Source of the DNA: Trichobilharzia szidati
Lineage: Eukaryota; Platyhelminthes; Trematoda; Strigeidida; Schistosomatidae
NCBI GenBank assembly: GCA_944472155.2
Contig: OX235277.1
Location: 38,140,804-38,204,803 of the forward strand
DNA: 64,000 bases
Direction of reading: 5' to 3'
Shown piece by piece: positions 3,346 to 61,200 of the stretch. Positions within the stretch are counted from its first letter, which is position 1, and the number at the start of each line of letters is the position of its first letter. Position numbers and translations under genes: made by a program. The notes beneath the pieces were generated by a model, which ran no database searches, had not been told where the DNA came from, and saw only the letters and a program-made list of their open reading frames with translations.

Positions 3346-3360
3346 AATTACTTCATATAT

Positions 3361-3690
3361 GGTTACAGGATTTCATCATGAGCTGAAATTGGTTACTGAA
3401 CCATTGGAAAACCCACAGGGAGTACTGGACAGCTGTTTCGTCAGCCTAGTTTGGGACTCTTCATCAGTACGCACCCACCCCGCCGGAGTTCGAACCCAGG
3501 ACCTTCTGGTTACAAGGTGAGCGAGCTCGTAGACCATTCATCAGTCACTGGGACCCGATCCAATGGCCAGTTCATGAATTCTAACTTCTGCCAATTCACG
3601 ATATAGCGCAACCGCTAGCCAACGCGTCTTCGGCGAGTATTTGTCCTCACACCCGACCCACCTGCTGCACCCTACTGGTCACGACTTCAT
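3361..3690 (-). mobile_element. SINE-A copy (tRNA head plus hammerhead-like core)
   Basis: On the - strand the order is 5' region, tRNA-like head (box B ggttcgaact), the GTACTG ATGAAGA GTCC segment, CGAAACAGCTGTC and CAGTACTCC, then the tail ending cagctcatgatgaaatcctg. The hammerhead segment has core position C3 changed to A and a small insertion in loop II. It is a near full-length member of the most abundant repeat in the window. Confidence 0.8.
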
Positions 3691-26450: not shown

Positions 26451-27084
26451 CGCGGGTTGGGGGAGGGGGGTGGTGCAACGATTGTTACAACCAGTGCCGA
26501 CACGTTGTGGTATGAACGCAGGAAATCGATCTCTGTGGTCTCCTGTTTACTGAAAAACCTTCTTTGAGACACACATACACACAGTCACAAAACGCTCCAA
26601 AGATAGAAAAGAAAAAAATGATTATTCGTTGCTAGAATGTGTGGTTCCGAAAAATTCAAAGTTGTCTCAAGCTATACACCCCAGCCTAAGTACAAAACGG
26701 GTGTTTACAACCAAGTAGATTATCCCTAACAAGGTGAGGCAGACAACTCTGTCCACAAGAATTACACATCAACACTTCCTACAAATAGTCCAAGGTTAGA
26801 ATGACTTTGTTTCACTCAAACAAAATCGTAGTCATAAAACTACAGATTATCAATGTATCACACAACCACTACCAAGAGGGAAGCATTGAAATTAGAGATT
26901 AACCAGAGGAGAAGGCAGATAATAGGGTCCAAATCAGCATATGACATGTAAATGTCAGAATAATGATATACAGTCTCATATGAAGACGGATAATGATTAC
27001 AAAGTTGGCGGAAACATCCGAATAAGTATTAATATAGAGATTAGATCGTTCAAAAGGGATTTTCCAAACAATTTTTCGTTACAG
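26451..27084. other. Unassigned sequence with G-rich tract
   Basis: A G-rich run lies at about 26458-26471. The 26810-27050 part resembles 28390-28600 weakly, suggesting an old repeat. No coding motif. Confidence 0.35.
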
Positions 27085-27137
27085 GGTTTCATCATGGGCT
27101 GACATTGGTTAGAGAACCATTTGAAAACCAACTGGGA

Positions 27138-27183
27138 GTACTGGACAGTTGTTTCGTTCTAGTCTGGGACTCTTCAGCAGTAT
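27138..27183 (-). ncRNA. Hammerhead ribozyme core, SINE-A type
   Basis: On the - strand: stem I ATACTG/CAGTAC (5 of 6 pairs next to the core), core CTGAAGA (27177-27171), stem II GTCC/GAAC (one C-A mismatch), GAAA (27155-27152), stem III ACA/TGT with a 2-base loop, cleavage base C at 27144. All conserved core positions are canonical. Most other SINE-A copies have A instead of C at core position 3. Activity is unproven. Confidence 0.6.
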
Positions 27184-27479
27184 GCACCCACCGGGGTTCA
27201 AATCCAGGACCTTCTGGTTGCAAGATGCTCACTAGCCACTTGCCCTATTCATGTAGGTCGTTACCTGGGGTTCCAGTGGGAAGTCGTGAACAGTAGGGTG
27301 CAGCAGGTCGGGTGTGAGAACAAATACTCGCCGGAGACATTGGCTAGGGGTCGCGCTATGTCGTGAATTGGCAGAAGTTAGAATTCATGGGCCATTGGAT
27401 AAGGTCCCAGTGGCTTAATGGTCTACGAGCTCGCTCACCTTGTAACCAGAAGGTCCTGGGTTCGAACCTTGGTGGGTGC

Positions 27480-27525
27480 GTACTGATGAAGAGTCCCAGA
27501 CTAGGATGAAACAGCTGTCCAGTAC
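27480..27525 (+). ncRNA. Hammerhead-like core with C3-to-A change, SINE-A type
   Basis: Stem I GTACTG/CAGTAC is perfect (27480-27485 with 27520-27525). The core reads ATGAAGA, so C3 is A. Stem II is GTCC/GGAT (one G-U), GAAA is intact, stem III is ACA/TGT with loop GC and the cleavage base is C27519. Position C3 pairs with G8 in the active site, so this copy is probably inactive. Confidence 0.55.
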
Positions 27526-27639
27526 TTCCAGCTTGGTTTTCCAATGGTTCTCTAACCAATGTCAGCTCATGATGAAATCCTGTAACCAATCAACCAAATC
27601 CCTACAAACCAATACTTGAAAAAAATTTTTCCGTTAAAA

Positions 27640-27890
27640 CGATTATGTCGCACATAACACATTTGGGGATTTGAATTAATTTTAGCCGTTAGATTCCGTT
27701 GGAAAGATCATTGTACACTTGGAAGCACTGGATGAGTGTTTCATTCCACTTACTGCAACTCTTTAGCAATGTACACCTGCGACTCCACAAGTGATCGTAC
27801 TTGAGACCTTTAAGGTTATGAGAGCAAGCTATTTGACGATACAGTCACTTGAATAGGAATTCAATTACCCGATGAGTCCCTCAAGAATGC
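27640..27890 (-). mobile_element. Very degenerate SINE-A
   Basis: Plus strand remnants such as ttggaagcactggatgagtg and actccacaagtgatcgtact follow the SINE-A order loosely. Confidence 0.35.
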
Positions 27891-40259: not shown

Positions 40260-40291
40260 AATAAACATTCTTTTGAAAATTATAACGTGCT

Positions 40292-41012
40292 AGATAGTTG
40301 AAGGTAATCGGCAGGAGCTCTTAAACCTACGCTTCGTGTTAGCTGGCACTCATCAGCAAGGCGTATCTGCAACCTTGAAGGAGCTGATGACCATTCTGGG
40401 ACTCGCACTCGCGTCACCCAGTACTGCGGACAGAGACGTTACCACTGAGCTATGCAGGTTCGCGACTGACCTCCTGTAGGACTGTATTCGATATTTTTGA
40501 TTGCACACTAGTCAGTAACTAGTGTAATGTGTCTAGTCCTATCTTCGGTGCAGGCTGAATTCTATCAGTCATGTTTGCAATGTGGCCACCATGCTAGGTG
40601 ACTCACCATTACGGTGCACTGTGAATTGTTGGTATTAGATGGTTGGAGGCAATCGGCAATCAAAAATATCCAATACAGTCCTACAGGAGGTCAGTCGCGA
40701 GCCTGAATAGCTCAGTGGTAACGTCTCTGACTGCAGTACTGGGTGACGCGGGTGCGAATCCCAGAATGGTCATCAGTTCCTTCAAGGTTGCAGATGCGCC
40801 TTGCTGATGAGTGCCAACTAGCACGAAACCTAGGTCCAAGTGTTCCTGCCGATCGCCTCCAACCATCTAATATCATCACTAACAATGTACACCGTGATGG
40901 TGAGCTACCTAGAATGGTGGCCACATTGCAAACCTGACTGATAGAATTCAGTCTGCACCGAAGATAGGACTAGACACATTACACTAGTTACTGACTAATG
41001 TGCAATCAAAAA
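40292..41012. mobile_element. SINE-B inverted pair inside the PLE
   Basis: The - strand member (40660-40292) starts and ends with the post-hammerhead segment (ctgccgattgcctccaacca and ctgccgattaccttcaacta), so it is slightly longer than one unit. The + strand member (about 40661-41012) starts at tcaaaaatatccaatacagt and ends at gtgcaatcaaaaat, a different permutation. In the + member box A is TAGCTCAGTGG (40708-40718) and box B GGTGCGAATCC (40751-40761). Confidence 0.8.
40798..40842 (+). ncRNA. Hammerhead ribozyme, SINE-B type, intact by inspection
   Basis: Stem I CTTG/CAAG (40800-40803 with 40837-40840; other copies extend it to GCCTTG/CAAGGC). Core CTGATGA is at 40804-40810. Stem II is GTGC/GCAC (40811-40814 with 40821-40824) around loop CAACTA, GAAA is 40825-40828, and stem III is ACC/GGT with a 2-base loop. 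Cleavage is predicted after C40836. Every conserved hammerhead position is present. It follows a tRNA-like pol III promoter, as in the schistosome SM-alpha SINE. Self-cleavage is predicted, not shown. Confidence 0.78.
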
Positions 41013-41879
41013 TTTTAATGTGCGTTTTTAATCAGTTAAACTGCGATGAGTCACCTCTAGCATTGAATGTTTCCATCGAGAACGTAAAGTTTAACGCTAA
41101 GCTTCATGAAACAAACGCTACGCTGGAATTCATCAACAACTGCATCGAATCAAATCACTATCCTGAAGTTTACTACAAGTCTCTACGTCGAAGCACAGTT
41201 CATCCCTATAAGAATACGCTGAAACGATATACATTAAACTAAACAGACTCTTTATCTACATACATACAAGAGAATGAAATGAATATCGCTCGCAGGCAAT
41301 ATGCGGTAGATGAACTGCCAGAAGACCTCAGAACATCTTTTGTGGAATACATTTCTCAAGTAAGTGAACGAAGGGTTCAGAAGAAGCAGATAGAGCTTAT
41401 GAAAGGACTTGAAAGGAAGCCAGAGGCTGGTAAATTTCCAGCAGATCCTAAAAAGTACGTCTACAGATAGAGTAGCGTTGAATTAAATAAGGTGCAACTT
41501 GAAGTACTTTCCCTTGGCCTTAGATTTTGTGACAGACCGAAACGAGCTAATCACTTAGATACTGATAGTGAATTTGAAAACCTATCTAGTCAAACAAGGG
41601 ATCTAGTTCCATCATCCACCCTGGAATTAGAACTCTTCAAATCCAGTCTAGTGGATTGTTGTTATCAGTACAAAAACATCAAATGCGACAGTAAACGTTT
41701 CTTGACAAAGGAGCACAGAGAAGAACTAAAGAAACTGACAATCACAAAGCTTGATAAAGGATCAAAAGTAGTCCTCCTTGATAGAAGTGACTATATTAAA
41801 AAGATGAATGATATATTGAAGGACACACAGAAGTTTCAAGAACTTGAGGAGAAAGAAGATTTCAATAACAAAATAGAGA

Positions 41880-42113
41880 ACGAATTAACCAGAATTTAAT
41901 TGAATTTTGGATTTTCCCGTCGATTGATTGGACCAAAGTGCTCGGTCTCAGGTTCACATGTCGGCTTCTTGAGCAGATGCTTTGACGATGTCTGGGCATT
42001 TAATTAGTATTTAATTGGTGGATGGTGACTGACGAGTCCCAAATAGGACGAAATGCGCATCCTGGATTCCACTGCTAGTCACCGTCCACCAATTAAATAC
42101 GAATTAACCAGAA
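41880..42113 (+). mobile_element. Short insertion (41895-42098) with hammerhead and 15-bp target duplication
   Basis: ACGAATTAACCAGAA occurs at 41880-41894 and again at 42099-42113, splitting the PLE frame between ENELTR and SLKKLRE. The 204-bp insert begins TTTAATTG and ends CAATTAAAT, and its right half is one long hairpin ending exactly at the insertion edge. It has no tRNA-like boxes and no reading frame. Confidence 0.82.
42007..42100 (+). ncRNA. Hammerhead-type hairpin, SM-alpha-like core
   Basis: Core CTGACGA (42029-42035), stem II GTCC/GGAC (42036-42039 with 42046-42049), GAAA (42050-42053), stem III ATG/CAT around CG, cleavage base C42061, then tggattccactgctagtcac, closely like the schistosome hammerhead I recall. 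A 24-bp outer helix pairs 42007-42030 with 42077-42100 (16 perfect, one U-G, 7 perfect). The base of stem I is changed: the usual CCAG partner of CTGG is missing and the outer helix runs into the core, so activity is doubtful. Confidence 0.65.
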
Positions 42114-42499
42114 GTTTGAAGAAACTAAGGGAGTAGGAGATATTTTCTGAAAGTTTATATGAAGAAATCTGGCCAACGGGTGAGTACAGGCGAAGATTGT
42201 ATGGCCTACCTAAAGTGCATAAACCAGAGGTACCGTTAAGACCAATACTTGATACGCGAAATTCGCCCTACCCTGCTCTAGCTCAATAGTTAGTAAATAT
42301 TCTCAAACCTTTGCACGAGAAGATAGTGAAACATTGCGTCAAAGATGTATTTGAATTCGTTGACAAAATCAAAGATATTAATATGAAGGATAAAACTATG
42401 ATATCTTTAGACACAACACCTTTATTCACAAATGTACCTCTAGCAGGAAACGGTTTGTAACAAAAGAAGTTTAGTAAGGACCCTCAGCGGCAGGATTAG

Positions 42500-44620: not shown

Positions 44621-44799
44621 TAAAGCTACATAACTCAGAAATAAGCTCAAATATATAGAGGGTTTTAAATGTTCAACTATAATACGTGTGACAAAAGATA
44701 CGTTATCTAAGACGGAGATCAGTCCACCTGTGACTTCTTTATTCTTTTTTTAATTCAATCTTGAATTTCCCGTTGACTGCATTCTACCGAGCAGCTAAT

Positions 44800-55270: not shown

Positions 55271-58200
55271 CTGAAATAGAGAAGAGAAAAATCAATAAAT
55301 AAATAAATAACCACAATGAGAAACAGTTTAATTTTCATACTATATAAATGTTATTCCATATTAGAGAAGTTTATTTTTAAATAACACACAGCGATGATGC
55401 AGTATTAACAACTGGATGACAAGGTGGTTTCGAGCATCATATTATTGTCACTCATAATCATTACCAATTTTAGTCACACGTCTTCACAATTTGTCTTACA
55501 CATACTATCTCTCTTTCAGTCTCTCCAACTTCCCGCTTTGTTATTTGTTGCCACTTTCCATATCTCTGGTATAGGCGGCACGTTGCGTCATTCTGATTGT
55601 ATATATGCGGTGTTGCATCGATAAACAAAGCTTCAGTCAGTGATTAACCTCTCTCCATCTCCACCTAAATACATCACATTTTAATACTCTCACCCTGTCC
55701 CACCCACCCTATTTTGTGATTGCACGCAAGTGAATGCACTGCAACGGCTGGGCTCTGTTTTTTCCTAGATTATTTAACTTGGCAGGATTAATCATCATTC
55801 TGGGTGTAGCTAAATTTTTATATTCCAATAATCTAGTTGACCCCGCCCGATCCACTTGTCTATCTCTGGGAGAGTTATTTGCTTGTTTTGAAAGCCATCC
55901 TAATCCCAGCATCATTGAGAATTCTACGTACGGCCTCTGACGTCTCTTCTTTATACGACGGTACTACAAAGGCTTTGGATTCCATATTATTTTCATCACT
56001 TTTGTCGGAATAAATATTGATTAAAAATATAAACGTGTAACATTTGACTCGTTGTCTCAAAAAAGCAACTGACACCCTTTGAAGCGATGAGTAATAGACT
56101 CAAAACCAACACCATTTCTATACTGGTTTCTGTATGCAAATATACCACCATAATTCTTTACACTAAAGATAGAAGCTATCGTTTTAGTGCATAAACACAT
56201 GAGCGGTATTAGTCAGCTGAGATATATTTTAGATCACCACATGGTACTGCCGAGAGAGTGAGTAGACTTCAGTGTTCCTCTTGAAATAATCTCAAGTGAA
56301 CATGTATTCATAGCCTTGCCTTTACCACTCAGGTAAGTTTTATTCATTGCCTTCACACAACTACAGTGTGTTCTTCACAAAAGTTAAGCAATGGCGAATT
56401 CGAAAGTCTGGCACTTACGACCTGGCTGGTTGACAATCCGAAAAGATTGAATGGCATATGAAGCTGTTTTCGCTATTGCCAACCATGGCAATGTAGCTCC
56501 CCTCACACTATTCCACTACCTTGTGGATCACAGACTTTAAGTCAAGAACTCCGGGAGGTCGTGCTCCCTTAAGACAACCACCACTTGCTTTCCACTGACT
56601 GCATCTCCAGGCAGCATTCCAATGCTTGCAAAATCTATGAAATTTTCTGTGGCGCATCTACTGGTGCCCTCCTTTATCTCGCTAATTAACTTCTAGCGTT
56701 TAATGACAAACGCAAATATCTCCATGATATCGTGTCATTTAGCGAACCGTTCAAATCAAGTGAATTTCTAGGCACTACTCATACACCCATACTTAAGATG
56801 ATTCCTGATATTGACTTCCGAAATAGGATATGTGGTCTATGAATCTCAAATAAAAATAATGTAACACTTATGAATACGTGTAGAATGCACACTGTTTACT
56901 ATTTTCTCAATTATTCTATAAATTACACTGAACCCACTGAGTTCGCATACACTGGCAAACTTTGACTGCCATTTAACAATGCGCTCATTGAATATAACAT
57001 AAATCATTCCTACGCGCCCTATTCCCTTTTATAGGAAACAGCAAGAATAATTACCAAATCCAAATGAAATTAGAAGGTATTCAAGTGTTGGTTTGCAGGG
57101 ATTTAATTGGTTTCAGGATTTCATCATGAACTGATATCGCTTAGAGGACCATTGGAAAACCCGCAGGGAGTATTGGACAGCCGGTTCGTCCCAGTTTGGG
57201 ACACTTCACAGTACGTACCCATTGAAGTTCGAACCCAAGATAGGACCTTCTGGTTACAATGCGGGCTCGTAGACCATTAAAGCCAATGGGACCCGATCCA
57301 GTGGTTCATGAATTCCAGCTTCTGCCAATTCATCATATGGTGGCTAGCCTTGTAACCAGAAGGTCCCGAGTTCGAACCTCAGTGGGTGCGTACTAGCTGA
57401 AGAGTCCCAAACTAGGATGATACAGCTGTCCAGTACTCCCATGTTCTACAGTGGTCCTCCAATCGATGTTAGTTCATGATGAAATCCTAAAACATTACAA
57501 GGTATTTGACAAGGAAAATCTACACAAATTTACTAACGTATGATAACAAGTCATTAAACTGTAAGTAAATTAGAGCTAATTAAGACATCTGACATCTTGC
57601 AAACTTGTTACTTATACCTCGAGGATCACCTATTAGTGTGGTTTCAGATTCTATTTCCCAGTAAAAGAGAGAAGGGAAGCAACCTGAAGGTGGGCAAAAT
57701 GTACAAAATGTCATTTCAGATTGGAAAAAACTTATTGTTAGTATAAGTTGAACAGCCAGTTAGATCTCTCGTTGGGATTTTTGAAGTAGAATGAGTACTA
57801 GTCAATGACAACACAGAACCATCTTTCATAGCATTTTTTAAAAAACACGTAGTCACACATAAGCTTGTATTTTTTCTCCATGGGGTCCCTTCGCTGCTTT
57901 TGGTCTTCTCATTGTATTTGTTGTATTCTGTCACAATATGCATCAGTTCCCTACACCTTCTAATGTTCTAAACCACCAGGGAGTACTAGACATCTCTGTT
58001 TCGTCCTAGTTATTGGCAATCTTCAACTGTACACACCCATGACTCCACAGCTGGAGATCGAATCCAGGATGTTCAGGTTATCCGGCAAGCCCCAGTGATC
58101 ACAAGAACTACTCGCTAGAATTGCAGGAACTGTAATGGACAACGTTTTTGGAATATCCCCCCCGGGACGATCTGTTTATAATATTTATATCAATTTAGAT

Positions 58201-61200
58201 ATTTCAACTAACTTCGTAATTAGTCTACATATTTCCCCTAGACTGTGAATAATTAATTTGACATTTGTATACGACATGTTGCTTTTTGACCTTTGTTATT
58301 TACATTTCTCCTTGTGTAACCTTCAATTGTGATGCTGCTGCTTGTGGTTGTGTGTGTACACTGAAAATGTGTTGTTTACAAGGGTGTGAGTTTGTTTGGG
58401 CGAATATGAAGGTCATTTTGACTCGGGAATGTCTGCGAGAAAGCTTGGTGTGTGATTCTTGTGGATAACAGAGCATTTATTAATCCTACCTCGTTCGTTG
58501 CGAATATTCTCCTACTCAACTAATTTTATCTCACAGTACTTGTTTTGTATTTAGAAACCCATATTGCCTGTATGAACTAGCTGCCTACCTCATGACACTG
58601 TTGAGGTGAATTTGAGTTTTAATGTTATTAATGTTTATAATAGAACCACTAAAATATTGAAGAATAATCGTTTAATCCCTGCCGTTGAACCGTTTAATGA
58701 TAGCGCGTATCTCAACAAAGTGTTCTCGGCTACACAGTAGAACGTAGAGATCAGTTTCTTGAGTTCAGAATATACATTCGCTCGCTTTAGTCAATAATGA
58801 GCGCAATACATTAACCTCCAACTGCCACTTAGAAGGTATTTGACATATCTCTTCTCGTCTGACTCCAACGCGGATGGACAGTAAAGTAAAAATGATCAGA
58901 TAATGACACCAAAAGCAAAAACAAAGAAAATGAAAAGAAAAGAAGAAACTCTTGATGAATACTAACCTGTCAATTTCTTTCTCAACTAAATGATATCGTG
59001 CTCGGAATGCAACTAAATGCGCATAATAGGCTGGCGCAGGGATTGAAACAGAACGCGTACAACGTACATATGTGTGACACAGTTGGTAAGTTAAATTTTG
59101 TATATCATCAGCGCTGAATCTATTAATATTAATAATAATAATAACAATTGAATACATTCGTCAGGAGAATAATTATTCACATGTGGTTATTTAAAAAATA
59201 CAGTAAAGATAAATCTCATTATTGGAAAAGCCAACTGTGCACGCTTATTTTTGTTAGTCTACTCAAGAATTTAACGGACTTCATGACGAAAGGATATTAG
59301 CTGAAGAATTATTAGCCCCAGTAAAAGACCCTGGTACGAATATACTTAGGTCCTTGTTCTCTCGAAATGCTCTCACTTGGGACACACGTCCATAGCCTCT
59401 ACCAGGTCCTGACTTCAAGCGGCAACGGTGCTCGTCACAAAAGTGTAAGGGTGGATGGAGGCCAACGTCAAACGCTGACAACCGGAACTTGTGAACATGC
59501 TAGTTCACATAGACCAACTGGAAATCCTGATCCCAAACCTGTGTTGTACATGGGCTACAGTATCCGAAAGGATTAAATGGCAGTGTAACAACATGATTTT
59601 GTCACCGCTAACCCATGGGACGTGGGTCCTGACGCTTCTCCACTGATTTGTAGATTATACTTCAAGTTTAAGGCCTGCGAATGCGGTGCCCCCCCCCACC
59701 AAAAAATAACCACCTGCTTCGGATTGCGCCTCAGGACGATGCCCCAGACCTTGCACAAACCATGAGATTTTGCGTGGCGTATCTCTTGGTGACCATAATG
59801 TACCAAATTTGTGTTTCATAAATAAATAATAAAAAGAGGATTATTGAAAACCATCACATGTACTTCAATAAATAATAAAGGGACATATAAAGTCCAGTTA
59901 TCTATCAAAACACGTGTGTTTTGTGCAGCAGCTCTCTATATTCCCCTCTTTATCGCTGTGATATATGGTTTGTTAAGTGCTATCGTGACACAACAGAACA
60001 CAAGAATGGTTGATAATGGAATGCCTATCTGCAATTTGATATACACATATAGGGAAACTATATATGTACCACATAGTAAAATCGTCACTTGCACAGATCT
60101 CCAGTGTTGTGCCTGCTACTTCTGGCCTTCCTTCGAATTACCTTTCTTTGTCTTCTTCACGTGTCTCCCATGTTTTGCCGATTCATACTGGTTCATCTCT
60201 TCGTATAGACGTTAAATCCATTCCCCCGCTATTCGATATTCTTGTGCCGATGACTGTCTCTACATATACTACTGATAAATCTTGTCAGTAGCACACACCA
60301 CACTATAATATGGTGCTACGCGAGTGCAGGAAGTCAGTTAGTCAATCGGGTAGTGAAGCTACATCGATTAAGATGACAGAAACACGTATTACGCGTGCCC
60401 GCCAAGTCATCGCATCTGTAAGTGAACAATGTTAGCAAGTTCAGGATTAGTCTGGAAAAGAAGTATGGGTGGGTCGACCGAAACCTATCTGTGTGACAGC
60501 TGGTTAGGGTGGCGGTGCTAAAAAGCAATGGTTGAAGAGTATTACTGATATGGATGAAAGCCGTTCTTCACAATGGCTAGTGCAGATGCAATCATTCCTT
60601 TTAAATCTCTTAGATCCACTAAACCCTCAATTTCTTTTTCCATGCTACTATTATCTGTCTAGTGCATATATTTTGCTCATTATACTTCCTCTAAATCTCT
60701 TTTTCACCTCTTTTTTGTCTATACTTTTGCGTACTACATGGAATGTGAAATTCAGTCAGTCAGGAAGCATCGTTTCAACTACTACAGGTGGAACGAATGA
60801 AGATGTCAAAACCAGCCAGTTAGAATCGGAAAGGTAAGACAGTCCAGCATCACTCTGAAATCAGTTTGGAAATCTTTTGCATTCAGCACAATCAACAAAA
60901 TTAGGCTACAGCATTTCATCACGACCTTACAACAACCAGAGAATGGAAAACCAACTGGGAGTACTGGACAGCTGTTTCGTCCCAGTTTGGGACTCTTCAC
61001 GTGGGTGCGTAATGATGGAGAGTTTCAAACTAGGTCGACGAAACAGCTGTCCAGTACTCCTAGTTGGTTTTCCAATGTTTTTCTAACTGATGTCAGCTCA
61101 TGATGAAATCTTATAACCAATCAAACTAAATCCCTACAAATCAATACTTGAATAACAAAATAAGAATTTTCAAAATCAATGTTAAATCGATCAGTTCTTC

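Follow-up and report, generated by a model that had tools for sequence, protein, structure and literature searches.

The window analysed here, a 64-kb stretch of the genome of the bird schistosome Trichobilharzia szidati, contains an old PLE gene interrupted by a 204-bp sequence with a hammerhead ribozyme core, which raises the question of what this sequence is and how it reached its present position. The insert is a fragment of a retrozyme and not a unit element. It is best read, with a probability of roughly 0.8, as a short double-armed retrotransposition product of a retrozyme with the module order A-T-H, made by priming from two sides, for which a PLE enzyme is the likeliest agent. The features of the locus are collected in Table 1.

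The insert (41895-42098) lies inside the PLE gene between exact 15-bp copies of ACGAATTAACCAGAA, as an earlier reading of the sequence alone (the sequence-only reading) had described. This is the sole exact 15-mer repeated at a spacing of 50-600 bp in the whole 64-kb window; in a shuffled-window control (n=10), no such pair occurs in nine shuffles and two pairs occur in the remaining one. The duplication measures 14 or 15 bp, since the A at 41894 can be assigned to either side. Restoration of a single flank copy had also been said to rejoin ENELTR with SLKKLRE in the PLE frame, and protein comparison bears this out. The PLE frame from 41282 onward, read through with the insert kept, was used as the query, and 10 homologs chosen from 164 protein matches were aligned to it. 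All 10 have a gap of 73 residues (219 bp) at the insert site, which corresponds to the 204 bp of the insert plus 15 bp. The nearest homolog, a protein of Schistosoma rodhaini, reads ENELTRSLKKL across the site. The host copy itself is degenerate, with stops on either side of the insert.

Table 1. Features of the insert, its target site and the surrounding PLE (positions of the 64-kb window)
Feature	Position	Strand	Remarks
Host PLE, inverted pLTR copy, upstream	40291..40657	-	from sequence comparison
Host PLE, pLTR in sense orientation, containing a hammerhead (40800-40840)	40657..41011	+	from Rfam and comparison
PLE protein, N-terminal part, left of insert	41282..41893	+	one internal stop; from frame and homologs
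Target site duplication, left copy, ACGAATTAACCAGAA	41880..41894	.	A at 41894 may be the first insert base
Left arm, part 1: whole module A, antisense, A115 to A1	41894..42008	-	4/115 mismatches against the satellite unit
Left arm, part 2: H in antisense orientation (H70 to H49)	42009..42030	-	from arm fit to the unit
Terminal helix, 22 bp (42009-42030 with 42077-42098)	42009..42098	.	H end in both orientations
Hammerhead-like core (CTGACGAG..CGAAA..ATC)	42024..42067	+	predicted cleavage after C at 42061; stem I lacks its proximal 5' strand
Right arm: H in sense orientation (H2 to H70)	42030..42098	+	1-nt overlap (T) at junction
Target site duplication, right copy, ACGAATTAACCAGAA, then GTTT	42099..42113	.	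first 9 nt match A1-9 at 8/9
PLE protein, right of insert, into RT domain	42114..42460	+	internal stops; from frame and homologs

The parent repeat of the insert measures 326-331 bp and comprises, in order, the modules A (115), T (141) and H (70), with a canonical type I hammerhead. Fitted to this unit, the insert resolves into a left arm (A115-A1 followed by H70-H49) of 137 nt at 96% and a right arm (H2-H70) of 69 nt at 97%. The proposal that it is a small retrozyme-like, non-autonomous element therefore needs to be divided: it is mobile, retrozyme-like and non-autonomous, but its 204 bp are a fragment of the 326-331-bp unit. The hammerhead core that had been noticed is real (Rfam Hammerhead_1, 44.0 bits, compared with 65.8 and 69.1 bits in the satellite array). 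The helix beside it had been given as 24 bp ending exactly at the insert edge; it measures 22 bp inside the insert, and the inverted repeat as a whole (31 nt at 94%) continues through the first 9 nt of the right duplication, since eight of these nine target bases agree with A1-A9 of the unit, perhaps a primer-template match. Since the H end is present twice in opposite sense, the long helix is an inverted repeat and not stem I of the ribozyme. The insert has no module T, which deprives it both of the 5' strand of stem I and of the Pol III-like boxes; to judge from its sequence, the insert would be expected to self-cleave poorly or not at all. A tRNA search made no call in the insert or in the 64-kb window, in agreement with the earlier remark that tRNA boxes are lacking, although the parent unit does have Pol III-like boxes in T.

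The A-T-H repeat occurs both as a tandem satellite and as dispersed copies. In one array (L047, on contig C736), eight complete 331-bp units were compared, of which seven are identical and the remaining one has two differences, and 36 of the 40 T-module matches scored (the best 40 of 1273) sit on this contig. Two hammerheads of the array, those scoring 65.8 and 69.1 bits, have a complete stem I (AUCCAG/CUGGAU), and in the 65.8-bit one an A replaces the first C of CUGACGA. This near-homogeneous satellite is a possible transcription source of multimers. Module T carries TGGTCTAGTGG and GGTTCGAGCC, A- and B-box-like stretches that we take to fit the forms of Pol III boxes; neither cmscan nor ARAGORN called a tRNA. 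The module maps of the inverted copies have no direct terminal repeats, and with a type I Rfam match and duplications commonly of 13 bp the family lacks the traits of plant LTR retrozymes (type III hammerheads in LTRs and a 4-bp duplication). No match to the ribozyme core turned up in a scan of viral contigs.

Dispersed copies were collected by searching the 1.11-Gb assembly, in which the window occupies C7:38140804-38204803, with the insert (best 39 of 4102 matches), the A module (best 40 of 1525), the T module (best 40 of 1273) and T+H (best 40 of 1271), which yields best-matching samples and not counts. The 68 loci from the insert and A-module searches, with the window insert excluded, represent 52 distinct sites by flank comparison. 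The sequence-only reading had envisaged further copies with boundaries and duplications of their own, and these are found. In the two samples (best 39 of 4102 and best 40 of 1525), 49 of the 52 sites are inverted, all head to head, and three are direct (L045, L047 and L061). At each of the 49 inverted sites the left arm is antisense and the right arm sense, so that both 3' ends point outward. An A end is paired with an H end (within 12 nt) at 44 of the 49 inverted sites among the matches listed, two H ends are paired at three (L015, L017 and L035), two A ends at none, and at two sites one end falls short of the module end (L022 and L056). If the ends were independent, about 23 of 46 pairs would be expected to be mixed, against the 44 observed (p ~1e-11); L015 and the partial-end sites L022 and L056 are excluded from this test.

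Because module A was part of both the insert query and the A-module query, which between them gave two of the three retrozyme samples, the third was drawn with T+H. Its 22 non-array sites (from the best 40 of 1271) comprise 17 inverted, four direct (L090, L092, L095 and L103) and one complex site (L091). Among these matches, 16 of the 17 inverted sites have one end at most 20 nt from the A end and the other at most 20 nt from the H end; the exception, L097, ends at A62 and H. The end calls of this sample were read by eye from tables, that of L096 from its flank, and the least clean are those of L093, L094 and L099.

The 49 inverted copies and the window insert (n=50) were fitted against a tandem reference, and an outer arm was recovered on each side in all 50 of these matches. 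An arm exceeds 326 nt in 21 of the 50, which points to a multimeric or circular template, and one direct copy spans 1026 nt. The arms overlap by at least 1 nt at the junction in 35 of the 50, a figure that has no control and may be inflated where local alignments overrun. The position of the junction differs between copies, and at one site (L037) a large middle piece prevents a clean split into two arms. Two short copies at different sites, L019 and L031, have one common junction sequence, so that a short inverted copy may occasionally serve as a source in its own right; the junction sequences of the other short copies differ, several of them joining within a few bases of the position used in the window insert. 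We make no claim that arm ends cluster where the ribozyme would cleave, since most of the first sample was selected with the window insert; arms of L010 (H34), L040 (H35) and L073 (H32) stop near H34. The right end of L056 lies at H38, a few bases beyond the cleavage site, with a 12-nt duplication, and perhaps records priming on a self-cleaved RNA. L062 and L063 have the same flanks, one of them being without an H-to-H stretch, as if this had been lost between direct repeats. The flanks of L015 are mirror images of each other, possibly an assembly palindrome, which is why this site is left out of both the duplication and the end-pair tests.

Target duplications were evaluated at 61 inverted sites, namely 48 of the 49 (without L015), 12 later ones and the window insert. 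Among these matches, exact flank repeats of at least 10 nt occur at 35 of the 61 sites, compared with 0.17% of 1187 mismatched flank pairs. The commonest length is 13 (18 sites). When at most one mismatch is allowed, 54 of the 61 sites pass, some of them weakly, and seven have no duplication; 13 is again the commonest length, within a range of 8-19. With the copies oriented so that the A end is at the left, a target preference emerges for AAC before the duplication and GTT after it: among the matches listed, C occurs at -1 in 30 of 53, A at -2 in 33 and A at -3 in 32, and the following three bases are G in 19, T in 29 and T in 27 of 54. The single-position p values range from 2e-9 to 6e-3 for positions picked post hoc. 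The preference is the same on both strands, which is expected if a symmetric enzyme nicks both. The window insert itself has AGA on the left, where the family prefers AAC, and GTTT on the right.

The host PLE offers a comparison, because its pLTR also occurs in inverted form. Of the best 40 scored candidates, one of which is the window itself, 26 pLTR copies were read, including six places chosen because an inverted second match had been listed for them. Thirteen of the 26 are inverted, namely the six preselected places and seven of the 20 others. Among these matches, 12 of the 13 inverted copies terminate at the tail (unit positions 129-134) on one side and at the hammerhead end (335 to 17) on the opposite side, with L109 as the exception. 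Unit position 129-134 is where the likeness of the host PLE to the pLTR unit stops, at 41011, near the start of the protein frame. Flank repeats of 12-16 nt with at most one mismatch accompany 10 of the 13 inverted copies, and 6 of 156 mismatched pairs reach the same score. Apparent 15-nt repeats at two direct PLE copies (L078 and L079) are largely the unit's own end and were not counted. The AAC/GTT preference is not seen by eye at the inverted PLE copies; GTTT follows in a single case, L085. Two closer links between retrozyme and PLE were considered and set aside. A shared tail was suggested by a 32-nt match (E 0.02-0.04) of the A end of the retrozyme to the PLE at 44749, a match that lies outside the pLTR family; most copies listed in the pLTR search match only from about query position 74 (44793 in the window). 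Common descent of the two units was suggested by 61% identity over 158 nt (E 0.009), which is too weak and lies mainly in the boxes and the ribozyme core.

The window holds further hammerheads, with seven Rfam matches at or above the gathering score. A laxer scan adds four below the gathering score (E <=0.5), and one place is ranked under another hammerhead model. Those on the minus strand at 49664-49614 and 63564-63520 are older and diverged, and are related to module H of the retrozyme. Hammerheads of a third family, which has inverted arms and stretches resembling boxes, are present at 27071-27650, 3355-3690, 57080-57505 and 60900-61155. In one copy of this family ACCAATTAAAT stands at 57101-57111, the same sequence as at the H end of the retrozyme.

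From the dispersed copies we infer an RNA template of circular or multimeric form, priming from two sides and a PLE-type enzyme as the mover. The enzyme would nick both target strands and leave 3' overhangs of the length of the duplication, and each 3' end would then serve as the primer for copying a retrozyme RNA, multimeric or circular, into cDNA. Of the two cDNAs, one would start at the H end and the other at the A end, after which they would be joined. For the window copy, synthesis of the left arm would have covered A and 22 nt of H, and that of the right arm 69 nt of H. The most probable enzyme would be the PLE reverse transcriptase/GIY-YIG endonuclease, because the inverted PLE pLTR copies of the T. 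szidati genome show the same two-ended build, which (at 12 of 13) is expected if PLE-type enzymes prime from both cut strands. The head-to-head shape of the sister copies likewise suggests that Penelope-type enzymes move these ribozyme elements. A unit of 331 bp is too short for a gene encoding the reverse transcriptase and GIY-YIG endonuclease, so the retrozyme could only be a passenger. The involvement of PLE machinery that had been floated for the insert is thus better supported by the inverted pLTR copies, the identity of the mover being probable. Since these copies do not show AAC/GTT by eye, this particular PLE family may not be the driver, which may be a different PLE family or another enzyme.

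A LINE (RTE- or L1-like) could move the same retrozyme family by ordinary twin priming, with no involvement of PLEs. Twin priming by LINEs yields inverted 5' parts and microhomology, the window contains open reading frames that we take to be RTE-like, and the target preference of the retrozyme differs from that of the PLE copies. In LINE twin priming, however, the position of the inner priming site is variable, whereas the retrozyme ends are fixed and different (44 of 49 among the matches listed), and the two-ended build is shared by inverted PLE pLTR copies of the same genome. A LINE mover is therefore considered unlikely. That the 204-bp stretch is instead a complete minimal retrozyme multiplying as a hairpin would fit the 12 of 49 inverted sites among the matches listed that, like the window insert, are short (188-219 nt), as well as the junction shared by L019 and L031 at different sites and the several others that join near that of the window insert. 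The other junctions differ from copy to copy, that of the window insert being unique among the short ones, and the short copies were retrieved with the insert itself as the query, which favours sequences like it. They also resolve into A and H arms just as the longer copies do, and stem I is incomplete. A stand-alone 204-bp element, which is very improbable, was rejected in favour of a head-to-head join of two arms of the 326-331-bp unit.

Even harder to credit is a fold-back DNA transposon (MITE) moved by a transposase by means of the short terminal inverted repeats ATTTAATTG/CAATTAAAT. A 9-bp inverted motif is found at both ends and the copies are internally inverted, but the duplications vary in length (8-19, commonest 13), as do the junctions, the arms exceed one unit in 21 of 50 among the matches listed, and simple truncated copies exist (L061 and L092). 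On these grounds the MITE reading is disfavoured, and two-sided priming of an A-T-H retrozyme RNA is retained as the preferred explanation.

Several known systems resemble parts of this arrangement. Passages of the sources on Sm-alpha and Sj-alpha describe hammerhead-bearing, SINE-like repeats with tRNA likeness, such as the 335-bp W36.2_W001 of Schistosoma mansoni (PMC8490949, PMC2770079). By these descriptions, the T. szidati family is alike in its type I hammerhead with a short stem III, its unit of ~330 bp and its high copy number in a blood fluke; two-ended inverted copies go unmentioned in the same passages (PMC8490949, PMC2770079). Metazoan non-LTR retrozymes are described, in the portions of the sources available, as ~170-400 nt in size with type I hammerheads, tandem copies and duplications of more than 4 bp (PMC7229834, Cervera and de la Pena 2020). 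All of these traits are shared (the commonest duplication here being 13), whereas most of the dispersed copies of T. szidati are inverted pairs, joined head to head and fixed at both ends. No description of head-to-head retrozyme copies was found in the titles, beginnings of abstracts and passages searched, a body of text that includes few subscription papers.

PLEs provide the closer parallel. Those of Adineta vaga are described, in the part of the paper available, with an inverted pLTR on one side, a tail at one end only and duplications of 8-10 bp (PMC3846280). The inverted repeat and one-end tail of such an insertion product are matched, among the copies listed, by the A/H pairs of the retrozyme (44 of 49) and by the pLTR copies (12 of 13). 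For PAc, a PLE of Anolis, both strands are cut and extended in vitro, and synthesis has two start sites within the RNA, one at either limit of a 'tail' (PMC11167929); cutting and extension of both strands and two internal start sites are what the retrozyme copies would call for as well. The retrozyme differs from PLEs in being too short for a PLE gene and in the length of the 'tail' between its ends, which would be module A (115 nt, compared with 30-40). Ribozyme mutants still insert in the Anolis system (PMC11167929), so that self-cleavage need not belong to the insertion step.

According to passages of a 2020 review, metazoan retrozyme repeats have no conserved motif that points to an autonomous mover, and PLEs/Terminons are named there as likely movers on the grounds of co-occurrence and of hammerheads in common (PMC7761336). 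Copy shape is another kind of evidence for a PLE mover and makes the idea testable. With odds slightly better than even, animal hammerhead retrozymes in general would be passengers of PLEs: a PLE dimer would cut both strands ~13 bp apart and copy a circular or multimeric RNA from both 3' ends by means of two initiation sites, a newborn copy would be a head-to-head pair, and the end pairs and duplications would be the genomic record of two-sided target-primed reverse transcription. The retrozyme copies also offer a natural archive of the way in which PLE-type enzymes may insert.
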